IMG/VR virus record: IMGVR_UViG_3300037584_002022
Location: 1-24,013 of that record
Strand: one strand, 5' to 3'
DNA from: a virus
DNA: 24,013 nucleotides
Both the position numbers and the translations under genes were made by a program. The notes under the pieces are model-generated. The model did not search any database. It had not been told where the DNA came from and saw only the letters and a list, made by a program, of their open reading frames with translations. Of this stretch, positions 140 through 23,825 are shown in pieces; position 1 is the stretch's first letter, and every line of letters starts with the position of its first letter.

Positions 140-565
140 ATGGCACTAACAGCATATAACGGAAAAAGTAATACAGGTGGTTCTCAGATACAAACTCTGG
201 TTAATCATACTAATAGTTCTGGTGGTGTTGAAAGGGTAATTATAAGTTTTATTAGAACACATGATAGTAGTCCAGCTAATGGATATTTTAATATTCAATG
301 GGGTAATGCTAGTGATCTTATAGATCTTCAGGTAACTTATCATATTTCATCTGGTAAGAATCCTGCTCTTGGTGCAACTGGATATAATACTGCCGTATAT
401 CAAAATGCTGGCAATTATATGGGACATACTGGTGGAGGTGGTGGAGTTACGGGAAATTTACCAACAGAACTCTATATTGCCGATGGTGAGAAGTTTATGT
501 TAACTTCTTATGGTCAAAGTCATGTGAAAGGATATAGCATTTTGGTGATACCAGAGGGAAGTTAA
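140..565 (+). CDS. Small virion structural protein, unknown role
   Basis: This 141-residue protein has no recognised catalytic motif. It is rich in Gly, Ser, Asn and Thr, has alternating hydrophobic segments (VERVIISFIRTH near 30-41; IDLQVTYHISS near 61-71) and a glycine run near residue 98. It ends GYSILVIPEGS, a beta-rich ending. That profile suits a small beta-sandwich phage appendage protein. It has no signal peptide or membrane segment. It sits between a structural gene and the collagen-like fibre gene, ending one base before the fibre's GTG start, so the two are probably translated together. It could be a fibre-attachment or capping protein, but this rests only on context. Confidence 0.6.
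   Translation: MALTAYNGKSNTGGSQIQTLVNHTNSSGGVERVIISFIRTHDSSPANGYFNIQWGNASDLIDLQVTYHISSGKNPALGATGYNTAVYQNAGNYMGHTGGGGGVTGNLPTELYIADGEKFMLTSYGQSHVKGYSILVIPEGS
554..558 (+). promoter_or_regulatory. Shine-Dalgarno sequence deciding a GTG start
   Basis: GAGGG lies seven bases before the GTG at 566. The spacing is good and no ATG in the same frame follows closely, so it supports GTG as the true start of the collagen-like fibre gene. Confidence 0.6.
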
Positions 566-2263
566 GTGGCAAATATTAATTTTCCAAATAATCCAACAAT
601 TGGTGATACTCATGTTTTTGGTGCAGCGTCATGGAGATGGAATGGATATGCTTGGGATAGAATAGCATCTCCTGGTTCTCCTGGACCTCCTGGTGCTACA
701 GGTTCTCCTGGTTTAACTGGTCCTAGTGGACCTGCTGGTCCTGCTTCTACTGTTGCTGGACCTCCAGGTCCTGCTGGAACTCCTGGAACTCCTGGATCTG
801 TTGGTCCTCCTGGAACTCCAGGTGCTGCTGGTCCTCCTGGACCTACTGGTGGTCCTCCTGGTCCCGAAGGTCCTCCTGGTCCTCCTGGTCCTGAAGGTCC
901 TCCTGGTCCTGAAGGTCCTGCTTCTACTGTTGCTGGTCCTCCTGGACCTCCTGGTCCTCCTGGTCCTGAAGGTCCTCCTGGTCCAGCTGGTAATCCGTCT
1001 ACTACTGTAGGTCCTCCTGGTCCTCCAGGATCAACTGGTTCGCCTGGTACTGAAGGTCCTCCTGGTCCTCCTGGTCCTGCTGGTGGTCCTCCTGGTCCTC
1101 CTGGTCCTGCTGGTGGTCCTCCAGGTCCTGCTGGTCCTCCTGGTCCTCCAGGATCAACTGGTTCGCCTGGTACTGAAGGTCCTCCTGGTCCTACTGGAAA
1201 TCCTGGTCCTCCTGGTCCTTCTGGTGGTGCTAGTGTATCAGTTCCTATTGGTGCTATTATTTTATGGTCTGGATCAACATCAACTATTCCAACTAATTAC
1301 GCTTTATGTGACGGTTCAAATAGCACACCAAATTTAACAGACAGATTTGTTATTGGTGCTGGTAGTGGTTACTCTGTTGGTTCTACTGGAGGTAGTGCTA
1401 ACTCTGCTATAGGTTCACATACACATGATGCTACTACAACAACCAGTTTAACTGGTAGCAATCACACTCATACATTCTCTGGATCTGGAAATCATACTCA
1501 TGATTTTTCAGGCAGTGCTTCTAATCATCAGCATGATTTTTCTGGATCTGCTAGTAATCATACTCATGATTTTACAGCAGGTGGATCTCATACCCATACA
1601 TTCTCTGGATCTGGATCTCATACTCATACTGTAAGTGCTGGATCTCATACACATACATTCTCTGGTTCTGCATCACACACTCATAGTGCTAGTGGAAGTG
1701 GTGGTAGTCATACTCATAGTGCTACCTTTAGTGAAAGTGCTCATCAACATACATCTGCTATACCTTCTGGATCTCAAGGAATTGATACTGACAGTCATGG
1801 ACATGATATGAGCATTTATCCTGGTGCTAGTAACTCTCTAACTTGGGGAGCAACTACTGGTGGTACTGTTTCTGTTGGTTCTGCCAATCCTAGTGTTTCT
1901 GTAAGTGTTGGTAGTGGAAGCGTTTCGATATCTGGTAATACAGGTAGTGCTTCATCTTCTGGTAGTACTGGTAGTGGAAGCGTTTCGATATCTGGTTCTA
2001 CTGGATCTGGTGGATCTTCCTCTTCAGGAACTACAAGTTCTGCTGGTGCTGCTAGTATATCTGGTAGTACAAGTTCTGCTGGTGCTGGTTCTGTAACTGG
2101 TACGACTGATAGTGGTGGAAATGCTGTTTCTGGTACAACTAGTGCTACTAATGCTAGTATGACAGCCTCTTCTAGTACAACCGTTGCTTCGTTTGGTACT
2201 GGTGTATCGGGAGCTAATTTACCACCATATTATGCTTTGTGTTACATAATGAGGATAACCTAG
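566..2263 (+). CDS. Collagen-like tail fibre with tail-collar domain and His-x-His arm
   Basis: This 565-residue protein probably forms a trimeric tail fibre. Residues 1-31 ([10 protein letters not shown]...[10 protein letters not shown]) match the short Trp-rich adaptor found at the N-terminus of many phage fibres. Residues about 36-221 are collagen-like Gly-X-Y repeats, dominated by GPP, GPE and GPA, with breaks at PASTVAG (59-65 and 118-124) and NPSTTVG (143-149). Residues about 226-285 match the phage tail-collar domain ([30 protein letters not shown]). From 285 to 413 there are twelve HxH motifs about ten residues apart. A His-free Ser/Gly/Thr arm of similar length follows (about 436-545), then the collar-type ending [14 protein letters not shown]. 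In T4 gp37, HxH motifs in the tip needle bind iron. Translation starts at GTG. The next gene is a prolyl 4-hydroxylase. Confidence 0.88.
1010..1069 (+). repeat. 60-bp exact direct repeat, copy 1 (collagen tract)
   Basis: By eye these 60 bases match positions 1133-1192 exactly, at an offset of 123 bp (41 codons, in frame). They encode the [20 protein letters not shown] segment of the collagen-like shaft. Confidence 0.85.
1133..1192 (+). repeat. 60-bp exact direct repeat, copy 2 (collagen tract)
   Basis: This is the second copy of the repeat at 1010-1069. Recombination between the two would delete or duplicate 41 residues without breaking the frame. Confidence 0.85.
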
Positions 2264-2293
2264 TTTGCATAATCTAGATTCTTGTAGTATAAT
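2264..2293 (+). promoter_or_regulatory. Possible sigma-70-like promoter for the prolyl hydroxylase gene
   Basis: A perfect TATAAT at 2288-2293 is preceded by TTTGCA (2264-2269, four of six bases matching TTGACA) with an 18-bp spacer. It lies in the 49-bp gap between the fibre stop codon and the ATG at 2313. TATAAT is common in AT-rich DNA, so this is moderate evidence. Confidence 0.4.
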
Positions 2294-2312
2294 ATGAGAA
2301 ACGAGTGTGGTT

Positions 2313-2927
2313 ATGAATGATTTAATTCAGGTTATAAAAGTTCTCAGTGAATCTGATCTAGAAATAGTTAATAATCATATTGATACTCTAGAATTTAATA
2401 AGTCTTCGGTTTTTAATTATAGTGATAATAAAACTGGTTCTGACATAAGAGAAGATGTTAGAACAAGTACTGGTACTACTCTTAATGAGAATCAAGAAGC
2501 AACTGTTTTATTACATAGTAAGATTAATGCTTCTTTAGAAGAATATTCTAGAAGAATTACTAATTATCATAAAAATTTTTCTTATTATCCTGCTCCCTGT
2601 GGTATAGATACAACTTGCTGGAGAGAAGGTATACAGATATTACAATATGTTGATGGGCAACAATATAAATTTCATCATGATTGTGCTACTGATCCCACAA
2701 TACGAGAGTATGAAAGAAAAGTATCTGTAATTCTTTATCTTAATAGTGATTTTGCAGGTGGAAATACTGCTTTTCCTCATAGGACATATAAACCTAATGC
2801 TGGAGAAGCATTAATATTTCCTTCTAATTGGTGTTATCCCCATGCTGGAACACCAGTAACTAATGGTACTAAAAGAGTGGCAGTAACTTGGTACTATGTT
2901 GATCATGTACTACATAATAAGAGATAG
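2313..2927 (+). CDS. Prolyl 4-hydroxylase (2OG-Fe(II) dioxygenase)
   Basis: The 204-residue product has the full prolyl 4-hydroxylase active-site pattern. The segment YVDGQQYKFHHD (112-123) fits the family's YxxGQxYxxHxD, with iron ligands H121 and D123. FAGGNTAFP (147-155) fits the FxGGxTxFP strand. H177 is the distal iron ligand and K187, ten residues later, is the expected 2-oxoglutarate-binding lysine. Such enzymes hydroxylate proline on peptides using O2, Fe(II) and 2-oxoglutarate. I chose ATG 2313 over GTG 2307 because GAG at 2303-2305 is well spaced for it. No signal peptide is visible, so it should act in the host cytoplasm. The collagen-like fibre encoded just upstream, rich in Gly-Pro-Pro, is the obvious candidate substrate. 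The fold is clear; the substrate is inferred. Confidence 0.88.
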   Translation: MNDLIQVIKVLSESDLEIVNNHIDTLEFNKSSVFNYSDNKTGSDIREDVRTSTGTTLNENQEATVLLHSKINASLEEYSRRITNYHKNFSYYPAPCGIDTTCWREGIQILQYVDGQQYKFHHDCATDPTIREYERKVSVILYLNSDFAGGNTAFPHRTYKPNAGEALIFPSNWCYPHAGTPVTNGTKRVAVTWYYVDHVLHNKR

Positions 2928-2935
2928 GTAAAATT

Positions 2936-3145
2936 ATGGGAATTCCAGTGGGAGATGATGAATATGTCGATAAGATAATTATCGATGTTTGTGCTAGAAA
3001 ATTTTTATTGCGTAGTAGTAAAGGGACTTCTAGAAAAGTTGAATGTGAAACCACAGAACAGTTTATGGATGTTTTGGAGGTTATTACTAATCAGGCAGAT
3101 CCAGATTTAATTGAGTACACTGATTTGGCAATTGTTGATTCATGA
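2936..3145 (+). CDS. Small conserved-type phage protein, unknown function
   Basis: This 69-residue acidic protein has no recognised domain. It starts MGIPVGDDEYVDKIIID and contains a predicted beta-hairpin (DVCARKFLLRSS, KVECETTEQF) followed by a helix (FMDVLEVITNQ). It lacks membrane segments. The gene starts eight bases after the prolyl hydroxylase stop, and its TGA overlaps the ATG of the next small gene. The operon-like packing suggests it is real, but nothing in the sequence gives a function. Confidence 0.6.
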   Translation: MGIPVGDDEYVDKIIIDVCARKFLLRSSKGTSRKVECETTEQFMDVLEVITNQADPDLIEYTDLAIVDS

Positions 3146-3258
3146 AAACTGATAAAGTTAAAGATGATGATTTGAAAAAAGAAAAGAATAAAGATATTAA
3201 AGAACAAACTGAAGAGGAGAAAGAGTTTATCAAGATTCATCGTCAGTTTGATCGCTAG
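3142..3258 (+). CDS. Tiny highly charged protein (38 aa)
   Basis: An ATG at 3142 overlaps the previous stop codon (ATGA) and opens a 38-codon frame ending in TAG at 3256-3258. The product is almost entirely Lys, Asp and Glu over its first 28 residues, then ends FIKIHRQFDR. It would be a soluble charged helix or disordered peptide. The stop/start coupling and lack of competing frames favour a real gene, but its small size leaves doubt. Function unknown. Confidence 0.5.
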   Translation: MKTDKVKDDDLKKEKNKDIKEQTEEEKEFIKIHRQFDR

Positions 3259-3271
3259 GTTAAGTAACTAG

Positions 3272-3278
3272 CTAAATA
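3272..3278 (+). promoter_or_regulatory. Putative late promoter CTAAATA
   Basis: CTAAATA matches the cyanomyovirus late-promoter type and lies 34 nt upstream of the 1959-aa gene start at 3313, in a 54-bp intergenic gap. A perfect palindrome sits between it and the start codon. Confidence 0.5.
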
Positions 3279-3288
3279 GACCATAGGA

Positions 3289-3304
3289 ACTTTTGGCCAA
3301 AAGT
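3289..3304 (+). repeat. 16-bp perfect palindrome in the leader of the giant tail gene
   Basis: ACTTTTGGCCAAAAGT equals its own reverse complement. It lies downstream of the CTAAATA motif and touches the GGAG ribosome-binding site (3305-3308) of the gene at 3313. As RNA it could fold into a 6-bp stem with a GGCC loop next to that site. As DNA it could be a dimeric protein's binding site. Confidence 0.7.
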
Positions 3305-3312
3305 GGAGTAAG

Positions 3313-6300
3313 ATGCCTTTAAATAAATTAGAGAATTTTATAAAGAATACTGAAGGACGTATTCTTTATGTAAACCCAAATGATCTTGACGCTACTGATG
3401 GTATCGAGAATCAAGGTAATTCATTAACTAAACCTTTCAAGACAATTCAGAGAGCACTGATTGAGTCTGCAAGATTTTCATATTTGGAAGGAAATGATAA
3501 CGATATAACAGAAAAAACAACTATTTTATTATTTCCTGGTGAGCATTTAGTTGATAATAGACCAGGTTTTGGAATTAAAAGTGTTGCTGGAGATGCTAGA
3601 GCAGTAACTCCTAGCGGAGCTGTAAGTAATATTGGTGCTACAGAGACATTTACTCTAACTTTAAACTCTAATTTTGATTTAACACAAGAAGATAATATAC
3701 TTTATAAGTTCAATAGTGTTCATGGTGGTGTTGTTGTACCTCGTGGTACATCTATTGTTGGACTAGATTTAAGAAAGACAAAAATAAGACCTAAGTATGT
3801 TCCAAACCCAACAGATGATGATGTACCAAATTCTGCTATATTCAGAATTACTGGTTCTTGTTATTTCTGGCAGTTTACTATCTTTGATGGTGATGAAACA
3901 ACCCTAGTATATACTGATAATCAAGATTTTGGTTCTGCTAATCAATCTAAACCAACATTCTCTCACCATAAACTAACAGTATTTGAATATGCTGATGGAG
4001 TTAATAATATTGAGAGTTATCAATTAACAGACCTTCAAGTATATTATAGTAAGTTATCAAACGCATTTAACAGAGCATCAACTAGAGAGATTACTCAAAA
4101 GTTCCCAGTTAATACTGGAGGGTTTGCTCCACAAAGACCTGAGTTTGAAATTGTTGGTGCATTTGCTACTGATGATAAAGCAATATCAAGAATTATTGCT
4201 GGTGATGGTGCTACTGCTGGTAATTTAGTTACTGTAACTACATCTTTACCTCATGAAGTGTCTGCTGGAACACCTATTAAAATTAATGGTGTTAACGTAA
4301 CAGATTTCAATATATCAACAAAGGTACAGAACGTAATAGATGAGAATAGATTTACATACTTACTTCCTTTTGTTAGACCAAATTTACCTGCTGGACCATC
4401 TGCTGGTTTAAGTGGTTCTGGTGCTTTTGTTTCTGTTGAGACTGATACTGTTACTGGTGCTTCTCCATATATCTTTAACTGTTCAATGAGATCAGTTTAT
4501 GGTATGTGTGGTATGCATGCTGATGGATCTAAGGCAACTGGATTCAAATCTATGGTTGTGGCACAGTTTACTGGTGTTTCACTACAAAAGGATGATCGTG
4601 CTTTTGCTGAATATAATCCTACCAATAGGGGTTATGATAAGATTTCATATACAAAACAGACTGGAAATAAACTATCTTCAGAATCTTCATCATTAATTAA
4701 TGAAACTGTTTATCATTTAAAATCAACTGCTGTTTATAGAGAGGGTTGGAAAAACATTCACGTTAGAGTTTCTAACGATGCTGTTATTCAGATTGTATCT
4801 GTTTTTGCGATTGGATACCATATGCACTTCCTCATGGAGTCAGGTGGTGATGCTTCAGTTACAAACTCAAACTCAAACTTTGGTCAGTTTGCTTTAGGTG
4901 CTGATGGATTCAAGAAGAGAGCATTTGATAAAGATAATAGAGGTTTCGCTACTAATATTATTGCTCCGAGAGCAGTAGTATCAGATAATTTTGAGGTAGA
5001 ATGGTTACAGGTAGATAAAGATAGCACACAGAAAATATATGCTGCTTGTGTTAGTGGTAATAATAGTGATGGTACTAGCATTAACTTAAACGATCCTGCG
5101 GTTACACGTAAAAATCGTATATACTTACTAGGACAAACTAACCCAACTCTTCCACCTTCAGATATTGCTCAGGGATTTAGGATAGGTGCTAAAGTTAATG
5201 AGAAATTAGAAATTAATGCTGGTGCTTATTCTGCTACCATCTTTATGTCTAAAGGTGCAAAGCAAGTTGCGTCTTCTACATCCGAAAAGAAATATACATC
5301 TGTTTTCCACTCTGATCCTGTAAATAATGTAAATGATTCAATATATGTAATTGAGGATGTTGGTGGACATGAATTGATGAATGGTGAATCCATCAGAATC
5401 ATTTCTGAATCTGGAAGATTACCTGAAGGACTAGATCCACATGCTGTATATTTTGCTATTACCAGCACTCAAGATAGTGATCTAGCTACCAATGAAATAA
5501 GAATAGCATCATCAAGAGCAAATGCTGAACTAGCTGATCCAGAGTACCTTAAAACTATTTCTGATCGTGCTTCTGGTGATTTAAAAATTCTCAGTAGAGT
5601 TTCTGATAAGAGGCCAGGTGAATTAGGACATCCACTTCAGTTTGATACTACAACTTATAATGGAGCATGGGATCTTGACAATCCATCTACATTAAGTGAT
5701 AGAATTGGTGGTTGGTTTGTTCATGTTGATATGGATAATACTATCAATAAAGGATTGATAGGAAGTTCACTTTATAGTACTTATTATACTGGAACAGCAC
5801 CAGCAGAACTTACTGGTGAAGAGATTCCATATATTGTTAGAAGGGATGATAGTAGAAGTCTAGATGAGAAATTATTTAAGGTTAGATATGTAGTACCTAA
5901 AGAGATAGTTGATGCTAAAGATCCTACAGATGGATTTATATTACAGGATTCTAGTTCAACTGGTGTTACTAGAATAGAAGATTTTGATAGAACTGAGATT
6001 GGAAATGGTAATGATCTTACTATACAACCAAATGATCCTGGTTATGAATTTGATAGAAACCTAAGATTCATAGCACATTTAAGTTATGATACTAATTCTA
6101 CCATTGCTACAGTTAGATCTGACAAGACACATAATTTAAAGCCAAATGATCAAATTATTATTAGGGGTATTACAACAACCACTAATACTACAGGATTATT
6201 TGATAAAGAATTTAATGGAACTTTCAAGGTTGAAACTGTAATTGATGATAAAACTTTTACCTATAAGGTGAAGAAATTAGTTGATGGCGAACCTGTTGGT

Positions 6301-9192
6301 GAGACAATAATTGTAGGAACATATACAAATAGTAATCATGTTAGGAATACTGATCTTCCTAGATTTGAAAGAAACGATACAAAGCAGAATCTTTTCATCT
6401 ATCGTGCTGAGACAATAACACCATACAAATATAATGTTCAAGATGGTGTTTATCATTTATTTGTTCTAAATGGTAATAATACTGTTGAGAAGGAATTTAC
6501 TTCTGCAAAGTATAATCAGAGTGTTGTTGATCTTTATCCACAGTTAGATAGAGATAATACAGATGATAATCCTCAAGCATCTCAGTCATATGCTCAATTA
6601 TTTCCAATAGGTCAAGTTTCAACTAATGATCTTAAGAAGAGTATAACCAGAGAGACTATTAATACATTTGTAGATACTTTTGGTATTAGTAATACAATCA
6701 ACACTATATCAAGTAGTGTTACTAATCCTACTTTAACATTAAGTTCTGAACATCATTTAAATGGTTTAAGATATGTTGAAGATGGTGATATTACTAGTAA
6801 TACTAATAACGCAGCACCTCATGTATCAGGTACTTATCATAATATCAAACTATTCTCTAGTTCAGTATCTCCATCAAGTGCTCCTTGGAAAGGTGCTACT
6901 GCTAAAGTAGTTGTAGATGATACAACAAAATTAGTTACTTCAGTAGAAATAATTGAAGGTGGATCTGGATATTCCGCAGGTGATGAACTATATTTTGATG
7001 CTTCTTCTGTTGCTAACGGAGGAATAGGTGGTGCACCTACTAATAGTAAGATTACTGTAAAGGCAGATCATATTTCCATAGTTAATGATATAAATTATCT
7101 ACAAGTAACAGGTATAACAACTGGTACTGATGCTTATTATAGAATTCAATCAACACCTGATGAGAATCAAGTAAACATCCGCACACACGTTGATAATCCT
7201 ACTATTCTACCTGGTCAGCAAATACTTGATCTAGGACCTTATTCTGAAGTTACTGGATTTGATCCTACAACTGATTCTGAGACTGTAGATAATGTTACGA
7301 CTACTACATTTACTACTTCTACTCCTCATGGATTATCAGCAGGTAATCGTATTAGATTCCTCAATAAGGATGATAAGAATTTAGTTGATATTGTTGTTAG
7401 TGAAGTTAAGACTGATGCTACTGGTAATCCCACAATATTTACATCAATAACAACAGGAATTACACTTACGTCTACTGCTGCTAATGATGCTACAACTCCT
7501 AAGTATCTTCTTAAACATGGATTAGGTTCTCATGATGCTATATCTGGAAGAGCTGGCGAGAATCTAGGTACAAGAGGTGTACCATTCTTTGACCATGATA
7601 CACTTCAGTTAGGTTCTATTATAGCAACTGAAGGTCAGTTCTTAGTCAATTTTGGTGATGGAACGGTAATTAATAGTGGAACTGCTGCACAAAAGTTATC
7701 TAAGAGAAGATCTGTTGAATCGAGATTCCCATTAGGATCTTATATTCAAATTGATAATGAAATTATGAGGGTTCGTAAGAAGTCTCTTGATGGAACTAAC
7801 TTTGATAATCTAGTTGTAATTCGTGGTGCTTTAGGTACAAATATTGCTCCACATGATGCTAAATCTGTAATTAGGAAGATTAAACCATTACCTCTTGAGG
7901 TAAGAAGACCATCTATCTTGAGGGCATCTGGTCATACATTTGAATATCTTGGTTATGGTCCAGGTAACTACTCAACTGCTCTACCACAGATAACTAAGAG
8001 AACTCTAACTGAAAGAGAAGAGTTCTTATCACAGTCACAAGAAACATCTTGTGGTACTGTTGTTTATACAGGTATGAATGATAAGGGTGATTTCTACATT
8101 GGAAACACCAAGATTTCTGCTGACAGTGGTGAACAAGTAACATTTGATATTCCAATCCCAACTGTAACTGGTGAAGATCCAAGTAAGTTAAGTGTTATCT
8201 TTGATGAAGTTATTGTTAAAGAGAGAATACTTGTTGAAGGTGGAGCATCTAACCAGATACTTTCACAGTTCAATGGTCCTGTCACATTCAATGGAACGGT
8301 TAGATTTAGTAAGGATTTAACTGTCACTCAGAAATTAAAAGTTCTAGGTGTAGTTAATTTCCAAAATGAAAAAGATAATAGCTCAACAAATTGTGCTAGT
8401 GGTAGTTTAGATGCTGCTCTCAATGTTACTGGTGGTGTTGCTATTGGAAAGAATCTTTATGTATGTAAAGAGATTAAGACCTTCTCTAGTGAACAAGCAG
8501 TTAGTACTAGTTCTGGTGCATTAGTGGTTTCTGGTGGTATTGGTGTTGCTAAAAATGCTTATATTGGTGGACTTGCTTCTATTACTGGTAACACAACTAT
8601 TGGTGGTACATTAGAAGTAACTAATGACACTACTCTTAAGGGTAATGTAACTCTTGGGGATGATGTTAGCACTGATACGGTAGCATTTAATTCTAAGATT
8701 AGCACTAATTTACTTCCATCAACAAGTGGTAAAACTATTGGTGACGCTACTGATAAATGGGGCAATATTTTTGCTTCTGATACTACTTTTGATTCTGTTA
8801 ATATTGTTGGTACTACTCCTTCTAATAGCAAAACTTCAGGTGCTTTAAAAGTAGCAGGTGGTGTTGGTATTAGTGGAGATCTAAATGTCGGTGGTGATAT
8901 TACTGCCTTCTCTGCTTCTGATAGTACATTAAAACAAAATGTTGTTGTTATTCCAAATGCTTTAGATAAAGTTAAAGCAATTTCGGGTAATACTTTTGAT
9001 TGGGTAGAAGGTAGGTCAAGTAAGATTGGTGCTGATACTGGTGTAATTGCCCAAGAAATTCAAGCATTAGGATTGCCTGGTGTAACTACTGTTAGGGATC
9101 ATGGTATTATCGCTGTAGATTATCAAAAACTTGTTCCTCTTCTAATAGAAGCAATTAAGGAACTTTCAACTAAGGTTGATGCTTTATCATAA
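3313..9192 (+). CDS. Giant tail protein with beta-helix and S74 chaperone domain
   Basis: This 1959-residue protein is probably a tail-fibre or baseplate appendage. Residues 15-50 (GRILYVNPNDLDATDG, LTKPFKTIQRALIES) resemble the start of pectate-lyase-like beta-helix phage proteins, and the long Asn/Thr/Ser/Gly-rich body fits beta-solenoid folds. GGSGYSAGD (1216-1224) is a motif common in phage structural proteins. Three related fibre repeats begin near 1701, 1735 and 1843 (pattern AL.V.GG(V/I)). The last 91 residues match the intramolecular chaperone/Peptidase S74 domain: S1869-D-S-T-L-K1874-Q-N places Ser and Lys five residues apart, as in the known self-cleaving Ser-Lys dyad. Such domains drive trimer folding and then cut themselves off before the serine. 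The start is ATG 3313 with GGAG upstream. I recall similar proteins in cyanomyoviruses. Confidence 0.87.
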   Translation: MPLNKLENFIKNTEGRILYVNPNDLDATDGIENQGNSLTKPFKTIQRALIESARFSYLEGNDNDITEKTTILLFPGEHLVDNRPGFGIKSVAGDARAVTPSGAVSNIGATETFTLTLNSNFDLTQEDNILYKFNSVHGGVVVPRGTSIVGLDLRKTKIRPKYVPNPTDDDVPNSAIFRITGSCYFWQFTIFDGDETTLVYTDNQDFGSANQSKPTFSHHKLTVFEYADGVNNIESYQLTDLQVYYSKLSNAFNRASTREITQKFPVNTGGFAPQRPEFEIVGAFATDDKAISRIIAGDGATAGNLVTVTTSLPHEVSAGTPIKINGVNVTDFNISTKVQNVIDENRFTYLLPFVRPNLPAGPSAGLSGSGAFVSVETDTVTGASPYIFNCSMRSVYGMCGMHADGSKATGFKSMVVAQFTGVSLQKDDRAFAEYNPTNRGYDKISYTKQTGNKLSSESSSLINETVYHLKSTAVYREGWKNIHVRVSNDAVIQIVSVFAIGYHMHFLMESGGDASVTNSNSNFGQFALGADGFKKRAFDKDNRGFATNIIAPRAVVSDNFEVEWLQVDKDSTQKIYAACVSGNNSDGTSINLNDPAVTRKNRIYLLGQTNPTLPPSDIAQGFRIGAKVNEKLEINAGAYSATIFMSKGAKQVASSTSEKKYTSVFHSDPVNNVNDSIYVIEDVGGHELMNGESIRIISESGRLPEGLDPHAVYFAITSTQDSDLATNEIRIASSRANAELADPEYLKTISDRASGDLKILSRVSDKRPGELGHPLQFDTTTYNGAWDLDNPSTLSDRIGGWFVHVDMDNTINKGLIGSSLYSTYYTGTAPAELTGEEIPYIVRRDDSRSLDEKLFKVRYVVPKEIVDAKDPTDGFILQDSSSTGVTRIEDFDRTEIGNGNDLTIQPNDPGYEFDRNLRFIAHLSYDTNSTIATVRSDKTHNLKPNDQIIIRGITTTTNTTGLFDKEFNGTFKVETVIDDKTFTYKVKKLVDGEPVGETIIVGTYTNSNHVRNTDLPRFERNDTKQNLFIYRAETITPYKYNVQDGVYHLFVLNGNNTVEKEFTSAKYNQSVVDLYPQLDRDNTDDNPQASQSYAQLFPIGQVSTNDLKKSITRETINTFVDTFGISNTINTISSSVTNPTLTLSSEHHLNGLRYVEDGDITSNTNNAAPHVSGTYHNIKLFSSSVSPSSAPWKGATAKVVVDDTTKLVTSVEIIEGGSGYSAGDELYFDASSVANGGIGGAPTNSKITVKADHISIVNDINYLQVTGITTGTDAYYRIQSTPDENQVNIRTHVDNPTILPGQQILDLGPYSEVTGFDPTTDSETVDNVTTTTFTTSTPHGLSAGNRIRFLNKDDKNLVDIVVSEVKTDATGNPTIFTSITTGITLTSTAANDATTPKYLLKHGLGSHDAISGRAGENLGTRGVPFFDHDTLQLGSIIATEGQFLVNFGDGTVINSGTAAQKLSKRRSVESRFPLGSYIQIDNEIMRVRKKSLDGTNFDNLVVIRGALGTNIAPHDAKSVIRKIKPLPLEVRRPSILRASGHTFEYLGYGPGNYSTALPQITKRTLTEREEFLSQSQETSCGTVVYTGMNDKGDFYIGNTKISADSGEQVTFDIPIPTVTGEDPSKLSVIFDEVIVKERILVEGGASNQILSQFNGPVTFNGTVRFSKDLTVTQKLKVLGVVNFQNEKDNSSTNCASGSLDAALNVTGGVAIGKNLYVCKEIKTFSSEQAVSTSSGALVVSGGIGVAKNAYIGGLASITGNTTIGGTLEVTNDTTLKGNVTLGDDVSTDTVAFNSKISTNLLPSTSGKTIGDATDKWGNIFASDTTFDSVNIVGTTPSNSKTSGALKVAGGVGISGDLNVGGDITAFSASDSTLKQNVVVIPNALDKVKAISGNTFDWVEGRSSKIGADTGVIAQEIQALGLPGVTTVRDHGIIAVDYQKLVPLLIEAIKELSTKVDALS
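8917..9192 (+). other. Peptidase S74 / endosialidase chaperone domain (sub-feature)
   Basis: Codons 1869-1959 of the giant tail protein encode this domain. It starts SDSTLKQN, continues with FDWVEG, GVIAQEIQ and IIAVDYQKLVPLLIEAIKEL, and ends in a coiled-coil-like helix. The predicted cut is just before S1869, which would leave a mature protein of about 1868 residues. Confidence 0.85.
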
Positions 9193-9215: not shown

Positions 9216-11132
9216 ATGGCTAATATTACCAAATCATTTAATTTCCGTAATGGAGTCCAAGTTGATGATGACAATCTTTTAGTAAACCCATCGGGTCTGG
9301 TAGGTATAGGAACCACGGTTCCTACAGAGGCTTTAGACGTTAGGGGAGATTGTGTAGTATCGGGACTTGTAAGTTCTACTACTGCTAAATTTGGTACTCT
9401 TGAAGTTACTGATTTAAGTATCGGAACAAATGTTTTTGGTACTGATAGTATTATTGGTGCTGGAGTTAGTATAAATTCTGGAATTATAAGTGCTTTAAGT
9501 TCTGCTGGTGTTGTTACCTATTATGGTGATGGTGGTAAGTTAGATAATATTCCTACTTCTCAATGGAAAGATTTAAATATTGGATTAGGTTTTACCAGTA
9601 TATACAATGAAGGTTTTGTTGGAATAGTTACTGGAGATCCAAGATTCGCTCTTCAAATTTCAGGATCAAATGATTTATCTAACTTTATTGATGGTGTAGG
9701 TATTACTTCTGAAGGTGGTATAGTTGCTACTGGTATAGTTACTGCAGGTATAGTTAAGTCACAGGCTTTTATAGGTAATGTTACTTCTGGTATTAGTACA
9801 TTAGGAATTTCAACTGCTGATAAAATAGATGTTGCTGGTATAGTTACAGCACATGGTGGTTTTGATGGCGATTTAGATGGTAATATTGTTAGTGGAGTAT
9901 CTACTATAACTCAAGTAGAATCAACTAATGTAAATGTTTCTGGTGTTGTAACTGCTACTACTTTTAAAGGTGCTGTTGAAGGTGGTGTAACTGGTAATTT
10001 AATTGGTAATGTAACAGGTCATGTTGCTGGTAATATAGTTGGTCTTGCTGCTACGATTAATGGTCCACTATCAGTAAGTGGTGATATTACTGGATCTACT
10101 GAAGTAAACACTGTAAGAGTAGTTTCTTCATCTTCTAATCTAGGAATTACAACTGTAAGTACGTTAAATATAACTCAGAAATTGGGTATTGGTATTCCTG
10201 CACCTGCTAATAATATTGACATATACAGTTCAACAGATACTACAGCAGGTTTTATTGGAAAAGAGAAGTCGGTTATTCTTTTAGGTCAAAGAACTGCTAC
10301 TGGAATAGGTGAGAGTGTTACTGCTCTTAGATTTGGTGCGAGTGATAAATCATTCGAGATAGTGAATGGAGACTGTGGAGACATTACTAATGTTTTACAT
10401 GGTGGTACATTTGTTGGTGCTGCTAATACAGGATCATTTAAGTGGTTATATGGTCAAGGTAATTCTAACTTGATGACACTTACTTATGACGGTAAGTTAG
10501 GTATCGGGAAAGCAAATCCAGAGACTGCATTGGACGTTGTTGGTGTAGCTACATTTGCTAATTCTGTTAGAGTTGATGGAAGTCTTACCGTTAATGGAAC
10601 AATATTCGGTGATGGATCTGGAATATCAAATATAACTCTTCCAGCGATTATTAATAATACTAATCTTAATACTACAACTGGAATCTCAACACTTAACGCA
10701 TTACAAGTTGCTGGATCTATTGGAGTTAATACCGTAGCGATTGGTACTGCTATAGAAAATGTTGGAAATGGTATTGGTGTTGATGCTCAACGTGATACCG
10801 CACTATTCTTGAGAGTTGGTATTGGAACTACTTTACCTGGTACTTCATTGGAGGTGAAGGGTGGATTATTTGGTAACATGCCAGGTAATGTAAGTACAGA
10901 AACTCTTGTTGTTGGTAAAACATTAACTCAATGTGCTGTTGATTTTTCTGATGCTGGTAAGGATTTACAGGGAGTAAGTGCTGGTAGATATTTCATGCTT
11001 CCACCCAAGATAACTACAACTCAGAGAAATAATATAACGTCAGGTAATCTCTATCCAGGTGCTATAATTTACAATACTACCACAAATAAATTACAAGTTT
11101 ATAACAGCAGTTCATGGGTTGATTTACATTAA
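9216..11132 (+). CDS. GIGTT-repeat virion structural protein (fibre-like)
   Basis: This 638-residue protein carries four copies of a GIGxxxPxxxLDVxG-type motif, near residues 30, 324, 429 and 535. That motif is common in trimeric phage tail fibres. Between copies lie short beta repeats such as GIVTAGIVKSQAFIGN, VTATTFKG and VTGNLIGNVTGHVAGNI. The C-terminus (TTTQRNNI at 600-607, then IIYNTTTNKLQVYNSSSWVDL) is a widely shared phage fibre ending. The start MANITKSFNFRNGVQV is typical of a virion-attachment segment. It has no chaperone domain, unlike the gene before it. The TAA overlaps the next ATG (TAATG), indicating coupled translation. It is very probably a virion protein; its exact place in the tail is not clear. 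Confidence 0.8.
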   Translation: MANITKSFNFRNGVQVDDDNLLVNPSGLVGIGTTVPTEALDVRGDCVVSGLVSSTTAKFGTLEVTDLSIGTNVFGTDSIIGAGVSINSGIISALSSAGVVTYYGDGGKLDNIPTSQWKDLNIGLGFTSIYNEGFVGIVTGDPRFALQISGSNDLSNFIDGVGITSEGGIVATGIVTAGIVKSQAFIGNVTSGISTLGISTADKIDVAGIVTAHGGFDGDLDGNIVSGVSTITQVESTNVNVSGVVTATTFKGAVEGGVTGNLIGNVTGHVAGNIVGLAATINGPLSVSGDITGSTEVNTVRVVSSSSNLGITTVSTLNITQKLGIGIPAPANNIDIYSSTDTTAGFIGKEKSVILLGQRTATGIGESVTALRFGASDKSFEIVNGDCGDITNVLHGGTFVGAANTGSFKWLYGQGNSNLMTLTYDGKLGIGKANPETALDVVGVATFANSVRVDGSLTVNGTIFGDGSGISNITLPAIINNTNLNTTTGISTLNALQVAGSIGVNTVAIGTAIENVGNGIGVDAQRDTALFLRVGIGTTLPGTSLEVKGGLFGNMPGNVSTETLVVGKTLTQCAVDFSDAGKDLQGVSAGRYFMLPPKITTTQRNNITSGNLYPGAIIYNTTTNKLQVYNSSSWVDLH

Positions 11133-18778: not shown

Positions 18779-19041
18779 CTAAGAAACATAGTTATACTAA
18801 TCCAGAAGATAAGTTTGATGCTGCTTATGTTGAGGCACAAGTTACTGAAGGTAAGAAGTATTATGATGAGCAAGGATGGGAGACCACCCCACCCATTTCT
18901 GATAGAGAATGTATCTTTCGGTGTTTAGAGAACTGTATCAATCTTGCTGGACTTGATAAGAAACAAGTCATGAGATTAGCAGAAGACTTTAAGACTAAAA
19001 AAACAGAGTTTGTAAGAAACGAGGAGTATCCAGTATTATGA
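18775..19041 (+). CDS. Small protein of unknown function (88 aa)
   Basis: I chose ATG 18775, which overlaps the preceding TGA, over an in-frame TTG at 18730 that would run deep into the previous gene. The 88-residue product has a Tyr/Asp-rich first half and a helical second half (ISDRECIFRCLENCINLAGL, KKQVMRLAEDFKTKK). Three Cys lie in the RECIFRCLENC segment (pattern CxxxCxxxC), which could bind a metal, but no family is recognised. The stop overlaps the next ATG. Confidence 0.65.
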   Translation: MTKKHSYTNPEDKFDAAYVEAQVTEGKKYYDEQGWETTPPISDRECIFRCLENCINLAGLDKKQVMRLAEDFKTKKTEFVRNEEYPVL

Positions 19042-19619
19042 ATCTTGATTCTATTATAGTTAGTGATTTTTTAGATGATCCCGATAAGGTCAGAGAATCT
19101 TTAATTAAACAGAATGTTGAGTTTGTTATTGATATGCCTGAAAAATTTCCTGGTAAAAGAACTCTAAGGGCAGATGAAGGTTATCAAAAAATGGTGGAGG
19201 AAAAGTTGGATAAAATTCTTCCATTTAAGTGGGAAATGGATATGAGTTCATCAACTTATTGTTTTCAATTATGTTTAGAAGGTGATGAGTCGTGGATACA
19301 TGTAGATCCGACAAAATGGGCAGGTATATTATATCTAACTCCTGATGCACCTAAAGATTCTGGTACTGTAATTTATATTGAAGATTATGATAAGGTCATG
19401 GGAGAAACTATTAAAAAAGTTAAAGAGACTGGAGATAATTCTTTATATACAAGTGTGAGGAATGAAAATGAAATAACTACAGTAGTTGGTAATGTTTATA
19501 ATAGATTATTATTACTCAGAGGATATTATTTACCACATAGAAGTAATATTTCTGGATTTGGAGATTGTTTGGAAAATGGTAGATTAACACAAGTATTTTT
19601 CTTTGATGAGGTAAAATGA
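19038..19619 (+). CDS. 2OG-Fe(II)-oxygenase-like protein (DUF6445 type)
   Basis: The 193-residue protein has a double-stranded beta-helix oxygenase signature: H88-V-D90 (SWIHVDPTKWAGILYL), a distal H167 (YYLPHRSNISGFG) and R182 (NGRLTQVFFF) as the likely 2-oxoglutarate ligand. The blocks WIHVDP.WAGILYL.P..P..SGT and RLLLLRG...H.S correspond, from memory, to the DUF6445 family, whose substrates are unknown. It lies between small unknown genes and purN and overlaps both (ATGA). It could modify a nucleotide, amino acid or protein; the sequence does not say which. Confidence 0.75.
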   Translation: MNLDSIIVSDFLDDPDKVRESLIKQNVEFVIDMPEKFPGKRTLRADEGYQKMVEEKLDKILPFKWEMDMSSSTYCFQLCLEGDESWIHVDPTKWAGILYLTPDAPKDSGTVIYIEDYDKVMGETIKKVKETGDNSLYTSVRNENEITTVVGNVYNRLLLLRGYYLPHRSNISGFGDCLENGRLTQVFFFDEVK

Positions 19620-21069: not shown

Positions 21070-21636
21070 ATGAGTGATATTAGGGTCTATGATAACTTTG
21101 TAAGTGAGGAAGAGTTTCTTCCTATACATCAATATTTTGTAGATACTAGAACTGGTTTCAATGGTGAGAGTGTTCCTTGGTATTGGGTAGATGGTGTTAA
21201 TAAATTTGGTGATGGTAGATTTATGTTTGTAAATCTCTGCTATGGCAATCTTCAGATTGTAAATCATACCATGTTTCAGGTTTTGGTTCCTATTCTAATG
21301 AAAATAGATCCATTGTCATTAACTAGGATTAAAGCAAATTTAACTGTAAGGGATGATACACCAGTTGATGATAGTCATTATCATACAGATGATAACTATT
21401 GTAATTGTGTAGAGGATGGTGGTAAAGGAGAAGATGCTACCATGACTACAGCAATTTATTATGTAAATACAAACAATGGAGGTACGCAATTTAAAAATGG
21501 TGAACAAGTTAATAGTGTTGCTAATAGATTAGTTGTATTTCCTTGTCACATGTATCATGCACCTATAGGGCATACTGATGAAAAAAATAGAATTGTAATT
21601 AATTTTAATTATTTTCATTCTCAAACAGGTATTTAA
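21070..21636 (+). CDS. 2OG-Fe(II) oxygenase superfamily protein
   Basis: The 188-residue protein has an oxygenase core: H105-T-D107 (SHYHTDDNY) as the HxD iron pair, GGTQF (137-141), H163 as distal ligand (MYHAPIGHTD) and R174 (EKNRIVINFNY) as the probable 2-oxoglutarate anchor. The substrate is unknown. A Cys/Gly insertion (NYCNCVEDGGKGEDA, 109-123) follows the HxD motif and could cover the active site. The gene sits behind a consensus host-type promoter, so it is likely expressed early. It is clearly distinct from the prolyl hydroxylase at 2313, lacking that enzyme's YxxGQxY and Lys pattern. Confidence 0.8.
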   Translation: MSDIRVYDNFVSEEEFLPIHQYFVDTRTGFNGESVPWYWVDGVNKFGDGRFMFVNLCYGNLQIVNHTMFQVLVPILMKIDPLSLTRIKANLTVRDDTPVDDSHYHTDDNYCNCVEDGGKGEDATMTTAIYYVNTNNGGTQFKNGEQVNSVANRLVVFPCHMYHAPIGHTDEKNRIVINFNYFHSQTGI

Positions 21637-23013: not shown

Positions 23014-23143
23014 GTATGAATCACAGATAGATTCTTTCACTTTTATGTGGGAGGGTGAGATGAAGTATTTTCGTGATTATGAAGGTGCTGAAGATTGGAT
23101 TCTATTGAATACTGCAAGACAGAATGAATATAATAGAAACTGA
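22985..23143 (+). CDS. Small protein overlapping both neighbours (52 aa)
   Basis: A 52-codon frame runs from ATG 22985, inside the end of the nitrilase gene, to TGA 23141-23143, inside the start of the next oxygenase. It fills the otherwise unexplained gap between them. The product (MPNQESLQIKYESQIDSF, then MWEGEMKYFRDYEGAEDW) is polar and aromatic-rich with no recognised family. Double overlap is typical of this compact genome, but without homologues the call is tentative. Confidence 0.5.
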   Translation: MPNQESLQIKYESQIDSFTFMWEGEMKYFRDYEGAEDWILLNTARQNEYNRN

Positions 23144-23825
23144 TTATGGAATGACTTATGTTCCTTTCATCAATACTGAATTAATATCACCCTTTGCTCC
23201 AGAGTGGAGATTTTACATAGCAGAGAAGATTCTATCAAGGATAGATTGTAACAGATTAAAGAATTATCTTTTGAGTAAACAACCAGAGATTCTTGCTATA
23301 AAAGATAAACTTACTGATGCTGGAACTGGATTGGGTAATGATAGTACAACTGCCAGATTCAGATCATATAATGTAATGACATGGGATCAACCTGATATTA
23401 ACATATTGAAGGAGGAGATTTCTATCATGCATGATAACTACTATAGGGATATAGTTGATAGACCAACACCAGAGGTTTCACTTGGTGGGTGGATGAATAT
23501 TATGAAGAAAGGTGATAGAATTAAGAGACATAATCATGGATTCTTAGATAATACTTACATAAGCGGTCATTTTACTGTTTGTTGTGACAGTACCAGAACT
23601 GTATATACTAATCCTTATGAACATTGGGATGAGTTTGAATTATTAAAAAGAGTTGAGGAGTATGGTCTGGAATTTAATCATTCATTATATGCCTCTAAGA
23701 ATACTGCAGGTCAATTAACATTATTTCCAGGATATATTCCACACTTTACTACAGAACATAGATCTGATAGTGATAGAATAACATTAGCATTTGAAATCAT
23801 ACCAGAATATGAAACCATTATTTAA
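23124..23825 (+). CDS. 2OG-Fe(II) oxygenase-like protein (HxH type)
   Basis: The 233-residue protein fits the family of putative 2OG-Fe(II) oxygenases often described as TIGR02466/PF13759: GGWMNIMKKGDRIKRHNHG (121-139), then ISGHFTV, LTLFPGYIPHFTTEHRS and DRITLAFEI. The iron site here is H136-N-H138 rather than HxD, as I recall for that family, with distal H207 and R218. The substrate is unknown. The N-terminal 110 residues are helical and poorly recognised. It overlaps the small gene before it and the cut-off gene after it. Confidence 0.78.
   Translation: MNIIETDYGMTYVPFINTELISPFAPEWRFYIAEKILSRIDCNRLKNYLLSKQPEILAIKDKLTDAGTGLGNDSTTARFRSYNVMTWDQPDINILKEEISIMHDNYYRDIVDRPTPEVSLGGWMNIMKKGDRIKRHNHGFLDNTYISGHFTVCCDSTRTVYTNPYEHWDEFELLKRVEEYGLEFNHSLYASKNTAGQLTLFPGYIPHFTTEHRSDSDRITLAFEIIPEYETII

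Follow-up and report, generated by a model that had tools for sequence, protein, structure and literature searches.

A collagen-like tail fibre gene and a linked prolyl 4-hydroxylase gene in T4-like cyanophages: a probable collagen-hydroxylation unit

Does a phage that builds a collagen-like tail fibre also bring the enzyme that hydroxylates it? The question is raised by a 24-kb window (the whole stretch of 24,013 nucleotides analysed here) in which a collagen-like fibre gene is followed by a gene for a prolyl 4-hydroxylase (P4H). According to a published analysis, bacteria and viruses have no enzymes for collagen proline hydroxylation and show no preference for proline in the Y position of Gly-X-Y triplets (PMC3368898), and the viral use of P4H genes, it has been written, 'remains cryptic' (PMC9301287). 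The window is a fragment of a T4-like cyanophage, the closest relative of which is the single-cell virus AG-345-F15 (Kyanoviridae, Salacisavirus).

The fibre gene, the hydroxylase gene and their neighbours

The two genes and their parts are as follows.
566-2263, + strand: collagen-like tail fibre, 565 aa (Pfam PF01391, 2.7e-16; PHROG tail fibre families including phrog_5073 and phrog_1800, tail collar fibre)
566-673, + strand: fibre N-terminal domain, residues 1-36 (phrog_33894 spans residues 1-49; similar N-termini in 34/111 of the loci surveyed below)
674-1225, + strand: collagen shaft, residues 37-220, 53 Gly-X-Y triplets, the proposed substrate (direct parse)
737-757, + strand: repeat break 1, GPASTVA (direct parse)
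914-934, + strand: repeat break 2, GPASTVA (direct parse)
989-1009, + strand: repeat break 3, GNPSTTV (direct parse)
1226-2263, + strand: C-terminal tail-collar-like domain with 12 HxH motifs in residues 285-413 (PHROG tail collar matches; HxH positions)
2313-2927, + strand: P4H, a 2OG-Fe(II) oxygenase, 204 aa from the ATG (PF13640, 2.2e-17; phrog_61, 4.6e-37)
2673-2681, + strand: iron-binding HxD, H121-H-D123 (invariant in 45 orthologues)
2841-2873, + strand: H177, the distal iron ligand, to K187, the 2-oxoglutarate-binding Lys ten residues on (invariant in 45 orthologues)

The GTG-start open reading frame at 566-2263 encodes a protein that scores 59.5 bits against the Pfam Collagen family PF01391, for which the cut-off is 27.2. 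The 184-residue Gly-X-Y shaft of this protein lies between a short N-terminal domain (residues 1-36), probably for virion attachment, and a tail-collar-like C-terminal domain that is likely to be the trimerisation and tip region. The sequence-only reading had described a fibre with about 185 residues of Gly-X-Y rich in Gly-Pro-Pro, and direct parsing agrees with it: of the 53 triplets, 37 have Pro in X, 31 have Pro in Y and 23 are GPP. The shaft is interrupted by three seven-residue breaks (GPASTVA twice, GNPSTTV once) and by three single-Gly insertions; the hinge role that the sequence-only reading gave the breaks is hypothetical. The four-residue pattern GPPG, which we used throughout as the marker of Pro-in-Y collagen, occurs 23 times in the fibre, whereas shuffled versions of the same residues contain it 0.5 times on average and never more than 3 times, and the longest strict Gly-X-Y run is 12 triplets compared with 6 in 1000 shuffles. 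The shaft of the nearest relative (L005:4461-6035) is shorter, with 43 triplets against 53 when counted in runs of at least 6; the difference from the shaft at 674-1225 consists of tandem duplications, and close relatives thus vary in shaft length. The 12 HxH motifs of the C-terminus (window positions 1418-1804) recall the iron-binding HxH sites in the tip of T4 gp37, and by this likeness they are possibly a second iron link within the fibre.

The P4H gene starts at a conserved ATG (2313), 49 bp after the fibre stop, with an alternative GTG (2307) six bases upstream. The complete P4H pattern that had been noticed from the sequence at this distance from the fibre proved to be there with every catalytic motif: Y112-xx-GQ-x-Y118-xx-H121-x-D123, FAGGNTAFP, H177 and K187. 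H121, D123 and H177 form the HxD...H iron triad of collagen-type P4Hs, and K187 stands ten residues past the distal His as the 2-oxoglutarate Lys. Together with R135 and W193 these four residues are invariant in 45 P4H orthologues; R135 aligns with a conserved Arg of the Chlamydomonas enzyme Cr-P4H, presumably R161, which we take to lie near the bound peptide. A profile of 40 orthologues gave eight sequence matches in the PDB, all of them P4Hs, including those of B. anthracis, Chlamydomonas and PBCV-1 and human P4HA2. The AF2 model of the protein (pLDDT 88.5) has the double-stranded beta-helix fold, its top matches being prolyl hydroxylases with TM-scores of 0.55-0.66: Cr-P4H bound to (Ser-Pro)5 came out best, followed by PBCV-1 vCPH, PHD2 and bacterial P4Hs. 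Comparison with three relatives gave dN/dS values of 0.14-0.35, that is purifying selection, which indicates that the P4H is a working gene. Plasmid relatives of the P4H are remote (28-40% identity).

Around the pair we identified the following features.
114-120, + strand: CTAAATA ahead of the gene group 140-3145, a candidate late promoter of T4 type (motif count and position)
140-565, + strand: 141-aa protein adjoining the start of the fibre gene, one half of a repeated two-gene adhesin module (9/34 loci with GPPG, 0/77 others)
2936-3145, + strand: 69-aa protein preceding the long fibre, with no specificity for the pair (67/68 loci without and 31/43 loci with P4H)
3272-3278, + strand: CTAAATA, second candidate late promoter, ahead of the phrog_529 fibre gene (motif count and position)
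3313-9192, + strand: 1959-aa fibre (phrog_529, E=0) with a C-terminal S74 chaperone (PF13884, 3.8e-9)

The 141-aa protein matched nothing in Pfam or PHROG. Its relatives stand before other fibre genes in L005, where the two-gene module, a protein of 134-141 aa and then a fibre-like protein, is repeated at 875-1926, 1954-3847 and 4035-6035; the fibre-like proteins of these modules have an N-terminal FP..P...D.H motif in common. CTAAATA occurs twice in the 24 kb compared with 7.7 copies expected by chance, and may be avoided elsewhere in the window. Both copies are intergenic, on the + strand and directly before structural genes, and they bracket the gene group 140-3145; from their likeness to T4 late promoters we regard them as candidate late promoters. 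Sigma-70-like sites in the gene gap were not commoner than chance. Three further likely 2OG-Fe(II) oxygenases are encoded in the window, at 19038-19619 (match to phrog_1644 only), 21070-21636 (weak match to phrog_81) and 23124-23825 (match to PF13759), and none of them adjoins a collagen gene.

Distribution of the hydroxylase with respect to collagen type

P4H orthologues at 40-56% identity are found in P-SSM2, AG-345-L05, ACG-2014f and S-CAM7, in each case in the same place, between Gly-X-Y genes and the long phrog_529 fibre that follows. The phrog_529 fibre, which lies outside the pair, served as syntenic anchor of a survey in which loci around it were collected from IMG/VR with four fibre queries and one P4H query. 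Dereplication by upstream sequence left 111 loci, and 10 kb upstream were scored in each (43 loci with P4H, 68 without), with Gly-X-Lys (Lys-in-Y) collagen as internal control. GPPG was present at least once in 36/43 loci with P4H and in 2/68 loci without (p about 1e-19), and at least twice in 33/43 and 1/68. The adjacency survey with controls that the sequence-only reading had proposed as a check thus came out in its favour. Because some loci had been picked via P4H, the survey was repeated on the fibre-selected loci only, with 17/22 against 2/68 (p 4e-12). The Lys-in-Y control gave 12/43 against 12/68 (p 0.24; p 0.04 in the fibre-selected subset). The presence of P4H is therefore tied to Pro-in-Y collagen much more strongly than to collagen-like repeats in general. 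The same holds among loci with any collagen-like gene, where at least two GPPG were found in 29/38 loci with and 1/13 without P4H (p 2e-5), and among expanded cassettes (33/42 against 1/18, p 1e-7). When 29 local gene families were compared, none came near the P4H/2OG family as a positive predictor of GPPG: it was present in 34/34 loci with GPPG and in 19/77 others (p 3e-15). In second place stood a 56-aa frame, the first member of which is contained within a P4H gene. Other 2OG oxygenases of the same phages had no such link to GPPG in the dereplicated loci. The distance from the end of the nearest GPPG gene to the P4H is 16-53 bp in several lineages and 0.5-0.9 kb in many others.

Seven of the 43 loci with P4H are devoid of GPPG, and six of these have Lys-in-Y collagens. 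In several loci with P4H the neighbouring collagens are mainly of the Lys- or Thr-in-Y type, and ACG-2014f combines P4H with a Thr-in-Y collagen and almost no GPPG. Loci with P4H and no Gly-X-Y at all are rare, and the apparent exceptions carry interrupted GPPGPPG segments: L014, L027, L041, L047 and L056 were dismissed as such exceptions when short GPPGPPG blocks split by STVAG breaks were found on inspection. GPPG counts were adopted because the strict Gly-X-Y regular expression missed these interrupted blocks.

Complete genomes gave a similar picture. We compared 21 cyanophage genomes. Four of them have a member of the P4H clade and represent three species, since P-SSM2 and P-SSM5 are almost identical; the other 17 have none. 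PF01391 was found over the family cut-off in 4/4 of the former and in 1/17 of the latter, S-CAM9, so that the outcome named beforehand as speaking against a fibre-modifying role, a hydroxylase equally common in phages without Gly-X-Y proteins, is not what we observed. The GPPGP pattern, counted in DNA, occurs 37-38, 37-38, 10 and 1 times in the four genomes with P4H and 0-1 times in those without, and the 17 genomes without P4H still hold up to five other 2OG oxygenases each. The P4H of P-SSM2 is PSSM2_031, which has five collagen-like neighbours.

How far the association reflects shared ancestry was addressed on trees. Along the P4H tree the neighbouring collagen switches its Y-residue type 11 times (shuffles: mean 18.3, minimum 14), and the fibre tree has about 15 changes of P4H. 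Independent contrasts are few because P4H and GPPG follow related clades: of the seven well-supported ones (starred branches) about 3.7 have GPPG changing with P4H and 0 against it, which is the expected direction but not significant at this low power; for the Lys control the figures are 0.8 and 0.7. Pagel's test of correlated evolution was discarded as support for the coupling of GPPG and P4H, since it was unspecific, with a likelihood ratio of 49.9 for GPPG but also 39.6 for the Lys control.

A GPPGPPG scan of all IMG/VR also recovered genuine Y-Pro-rich collagens in non-cyanophage contigs, with no P4H within the retrieved flanks. Y-Pro collagen therefore does not need P4H, and the pairing of fibre and P4H is a feature of a lineage and not a rule. 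A scan of cellular genome contigs gave three matches in cellular assemblies, which we read as phage contigs. One contig (L435), from the Pelagibacteraceae (SAR11) single-cell assembly AG-345-F21 of the same plate series, has a GPPG gene with a P4H of 91% identity next to it; a co-sorted virus, contamination or an unexpected host are alternative explanations of its origin.

Proposed function and its alternatives

We consider it likely that fibre and P4H form a two-gene collagen-hydroxylation unit in the adhesin cassette of the Kyanoviridae (T4-like cyanophages). The phage would make a trimeric fibre with a Pro-rich Gly-X-Y triple-helix shaft, and both genes would be expressed together late in infection, probably from one late transcript. 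The P4H would act in the cytoplasm of the cyanobacterium, which is rich in O2 and 2-oxoglutarate, and would use these and host Fe(II) to turn Y-position prolines of new, unfolded chains into 4-hydroxyproline, and the hydroxylated chains would then trimerise and fold. Hydroxyproline in the Y position raises triple-helix stability; hydroxylation of the shaft would stiffen and heat-stabilise the fibre, and a thin fibre exposed to warm surface water could profit from the added stability. The earlier suggestion that the phage hydroxylates its own shaft with its own enzyme gains support from the P4H family, the conserved link to collagen-like genes and the Pro-in-Y specificity of that link, but it loses generality with the unpaired Y-Pro-rich collagens outside the cyanophages.

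It is also conceivable, if unlikely, that the P4H modifies another protein of the host or the phage, for example EF-Tu, which Pseudomonas and Bacillus P4Hs modify, and came to the cassette by chance or shared descent. Among its fold matches are two P4H structures that involve EF-Tu, from P. putida (a complex) and B. anthracis (PDB 5v7y, from its title), the related clades leave few independent contrasts, and six loci with P4H have Lys-type collagens only. A passenger of this kind is however hard to reconcile with a link that is to Pro-in-Y collagen and not to the cassette, with the rarity of P4H in loci lacking any Gly-X-Y, and with the absence of such a link for the other 2OG oxygenases of the same phages. 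We give still less credence to a broader collagen hydroxylase acting on Y-position Lys, or on Lys and Pro, with hydroxyproline not its main product: about a quarter of the loci with P4H have mainly Lys-in-Y collagens and the P4H clades track the Y-residue type, but the relatives in sequence and fold are prolyl and not lysyl hydroxylases, the full set shows no enrichment of P4H with Lys-type collagen, and Lys-type loci can have an LH3-like enzyme of their own.

Least probable is a PiuC/YbiX-type iron-regulated dioxygenase unrelated to collagen, a reading that derives from the annotation of the P-SSM2 orthologue as piuC and from a weak similarity to NCBIfam PRK05467. This identity was rejected, as the score of 29.9 bits is far below the equivalog cut-off of 143 and the label in P-SSM2 is therefore misleading; in addition, the PDB sequence relatives are all P4Hs with no PiuC-type chain among them, and the distal His with a Lys ten residues on is of the P4H type. 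In this lineage of abundant ocean phages P4H is tied to precisely those collagens that contain the substrate expected for it, and the pairing offers a substrate for a common 'auxiliary' gene. Phage hydroxyproline is directly testable in the cultured isolates P-SSM2 and S-CAM7, and the pairing could serve materials work as a compact bacterial source of hydroxylated collagen.

Related viral systems and lysine-type loci

Among viruses of eukaryotes, PBCV-1 (Paramecium bursaria chlorella virus 1) is already known to encode a P4H and mimivirus to modify the lysines of collagen, and a bacterial P4H is known to act on collagen peptides. The PBCV-1 collagen prolyl hydroxylase, vCPH (PDB 5c5t, 5c5u), shares with the phage P4H its viral origin and its fold (Foldseek E 1.3e-10 with the AF2 model), but it belongs to a eukaryotic giant virus and is about 21% identical. 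Its substrates are presumably repeats of the Pro-Ala-Pro-Lys type and not a Gly-X-Y tail fibre encoded by the next gene. The closest solved sequence relative (3.6e-16) is the P4H of B. anthracis (PDB 3itq, 5hv0), a host of BclA-type collagen-like proteins; this enzyme differs in being cellular and in having EF-Tu as a further substrate, and we know of no two-gene unit that it forms with a collagen. It hydroxylates (PPG)n with a preference for Y-position Pro (PMC8968730), and vCPH was reported to modify viral Pro-rich proteins (Eriksson 1999, as cited in PMC9301287). E. coli EPclPs and similar phage and prophage fibres have Gly-X-Y shafts like that of the fibre at 566-2263, and such fibres were described as having neither a prolyl hydroxylase nor a Pro preference in Y (PMC3368898); the present fibre differs from EPclPs in its Pro at 31/53 Y positions and its neighbouring P4H gene. 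Mimivirus resembles the phage in encoding collagens together with their modifying enzymes, L230 and R699 (PMC9546862), but is an amoeba virus that hydroxylates and glucosylates lysine. The assumption that collagen-like proteins of bacteria and phages 'do without' hydroxylation is thus too broad for viruses, given the P4H of PBCV-1 and the collagen lysine-modifying enzymes of mimivirus (PMC9301287, PMC9546862). In our search of the open-licence literature, no phage was described that pairs a collagen with a hydroxylase of its own; an earlier mention elsewhere is possible.

A lysine counterpart was found in S-CAM9, in which a collagen with Thr and Lys in Y is directly followed by two 2OG oxygenases and a 618-aa fusion protein. 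Three parts of this protein match, respectively, human procollagen galactosyltransferase 1 (COLGALT1), the glucosyltransferase domain of LH3, and the lysyl hydroxylase domain of LH3 and mimivirus L230. Such fusions were located as follows.
L456:10414-12252: GT25, GT_PLOD and lysyl-hydroxylase-like 2OG fusion of Synechococcus phage S-CAM9, adjoining a Lys-containing collagen-like fibre
L062:14352-16256, L194:7442-9349, L196:4826-6730 and L080:11779-13683: the same GT25-PLOD-LH fusion in four further marine contigs

All are single proteins of 618-636 aa with the lysyl-hydroxylase-like 2OG domain at the C-terminus. The fusion is confined to loci with Lys-containing collagen, the four further contigs all being of the Lys-in-Y type, and was absent from every other record tested. 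It is matched by mimivirus L230 and R699, and by homology it also contains the galactosyltransferase step that has not been assigned in mimivirus. As the lysine counterpart of the P4H pair, the fusion supports reading both as collagen modification. Marine cyanophages may thus, in a reading for which we find the case evenly poised, carry interchangeable animal-like collagen-modification toolkits matched to the Y residue of the fibre, P4H with Pro-in-Y and a galactosyltransferase, glucosyltransferase and lysyl hydroxylase polypeptide with Lys-in-Y. If so, the tails of marine cyanophages would generally be built with hydroxylated (and glycosylated) collagen.

Lys-in-Y loci without the P4H clade (such as L140, L143, L145 and L128, upstream of the long fibre) often have a divergent 2OG oxygenase adjoining, in 6/12 cases compared with 4/56 of the other loci without P4H, and the closest PDB match of one such enzyme is PBCV-1 vCPH. 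Convergent 2OG oxygenases also stand less than 50 bp from Gly-Thr-Ser/Asn repeat proteins in two virus contigs, at 2982-3437 (- strand) next to L311:1352-2941 and at 9273-9902 (+ strand) next to L333:9946-14961 (- strand).
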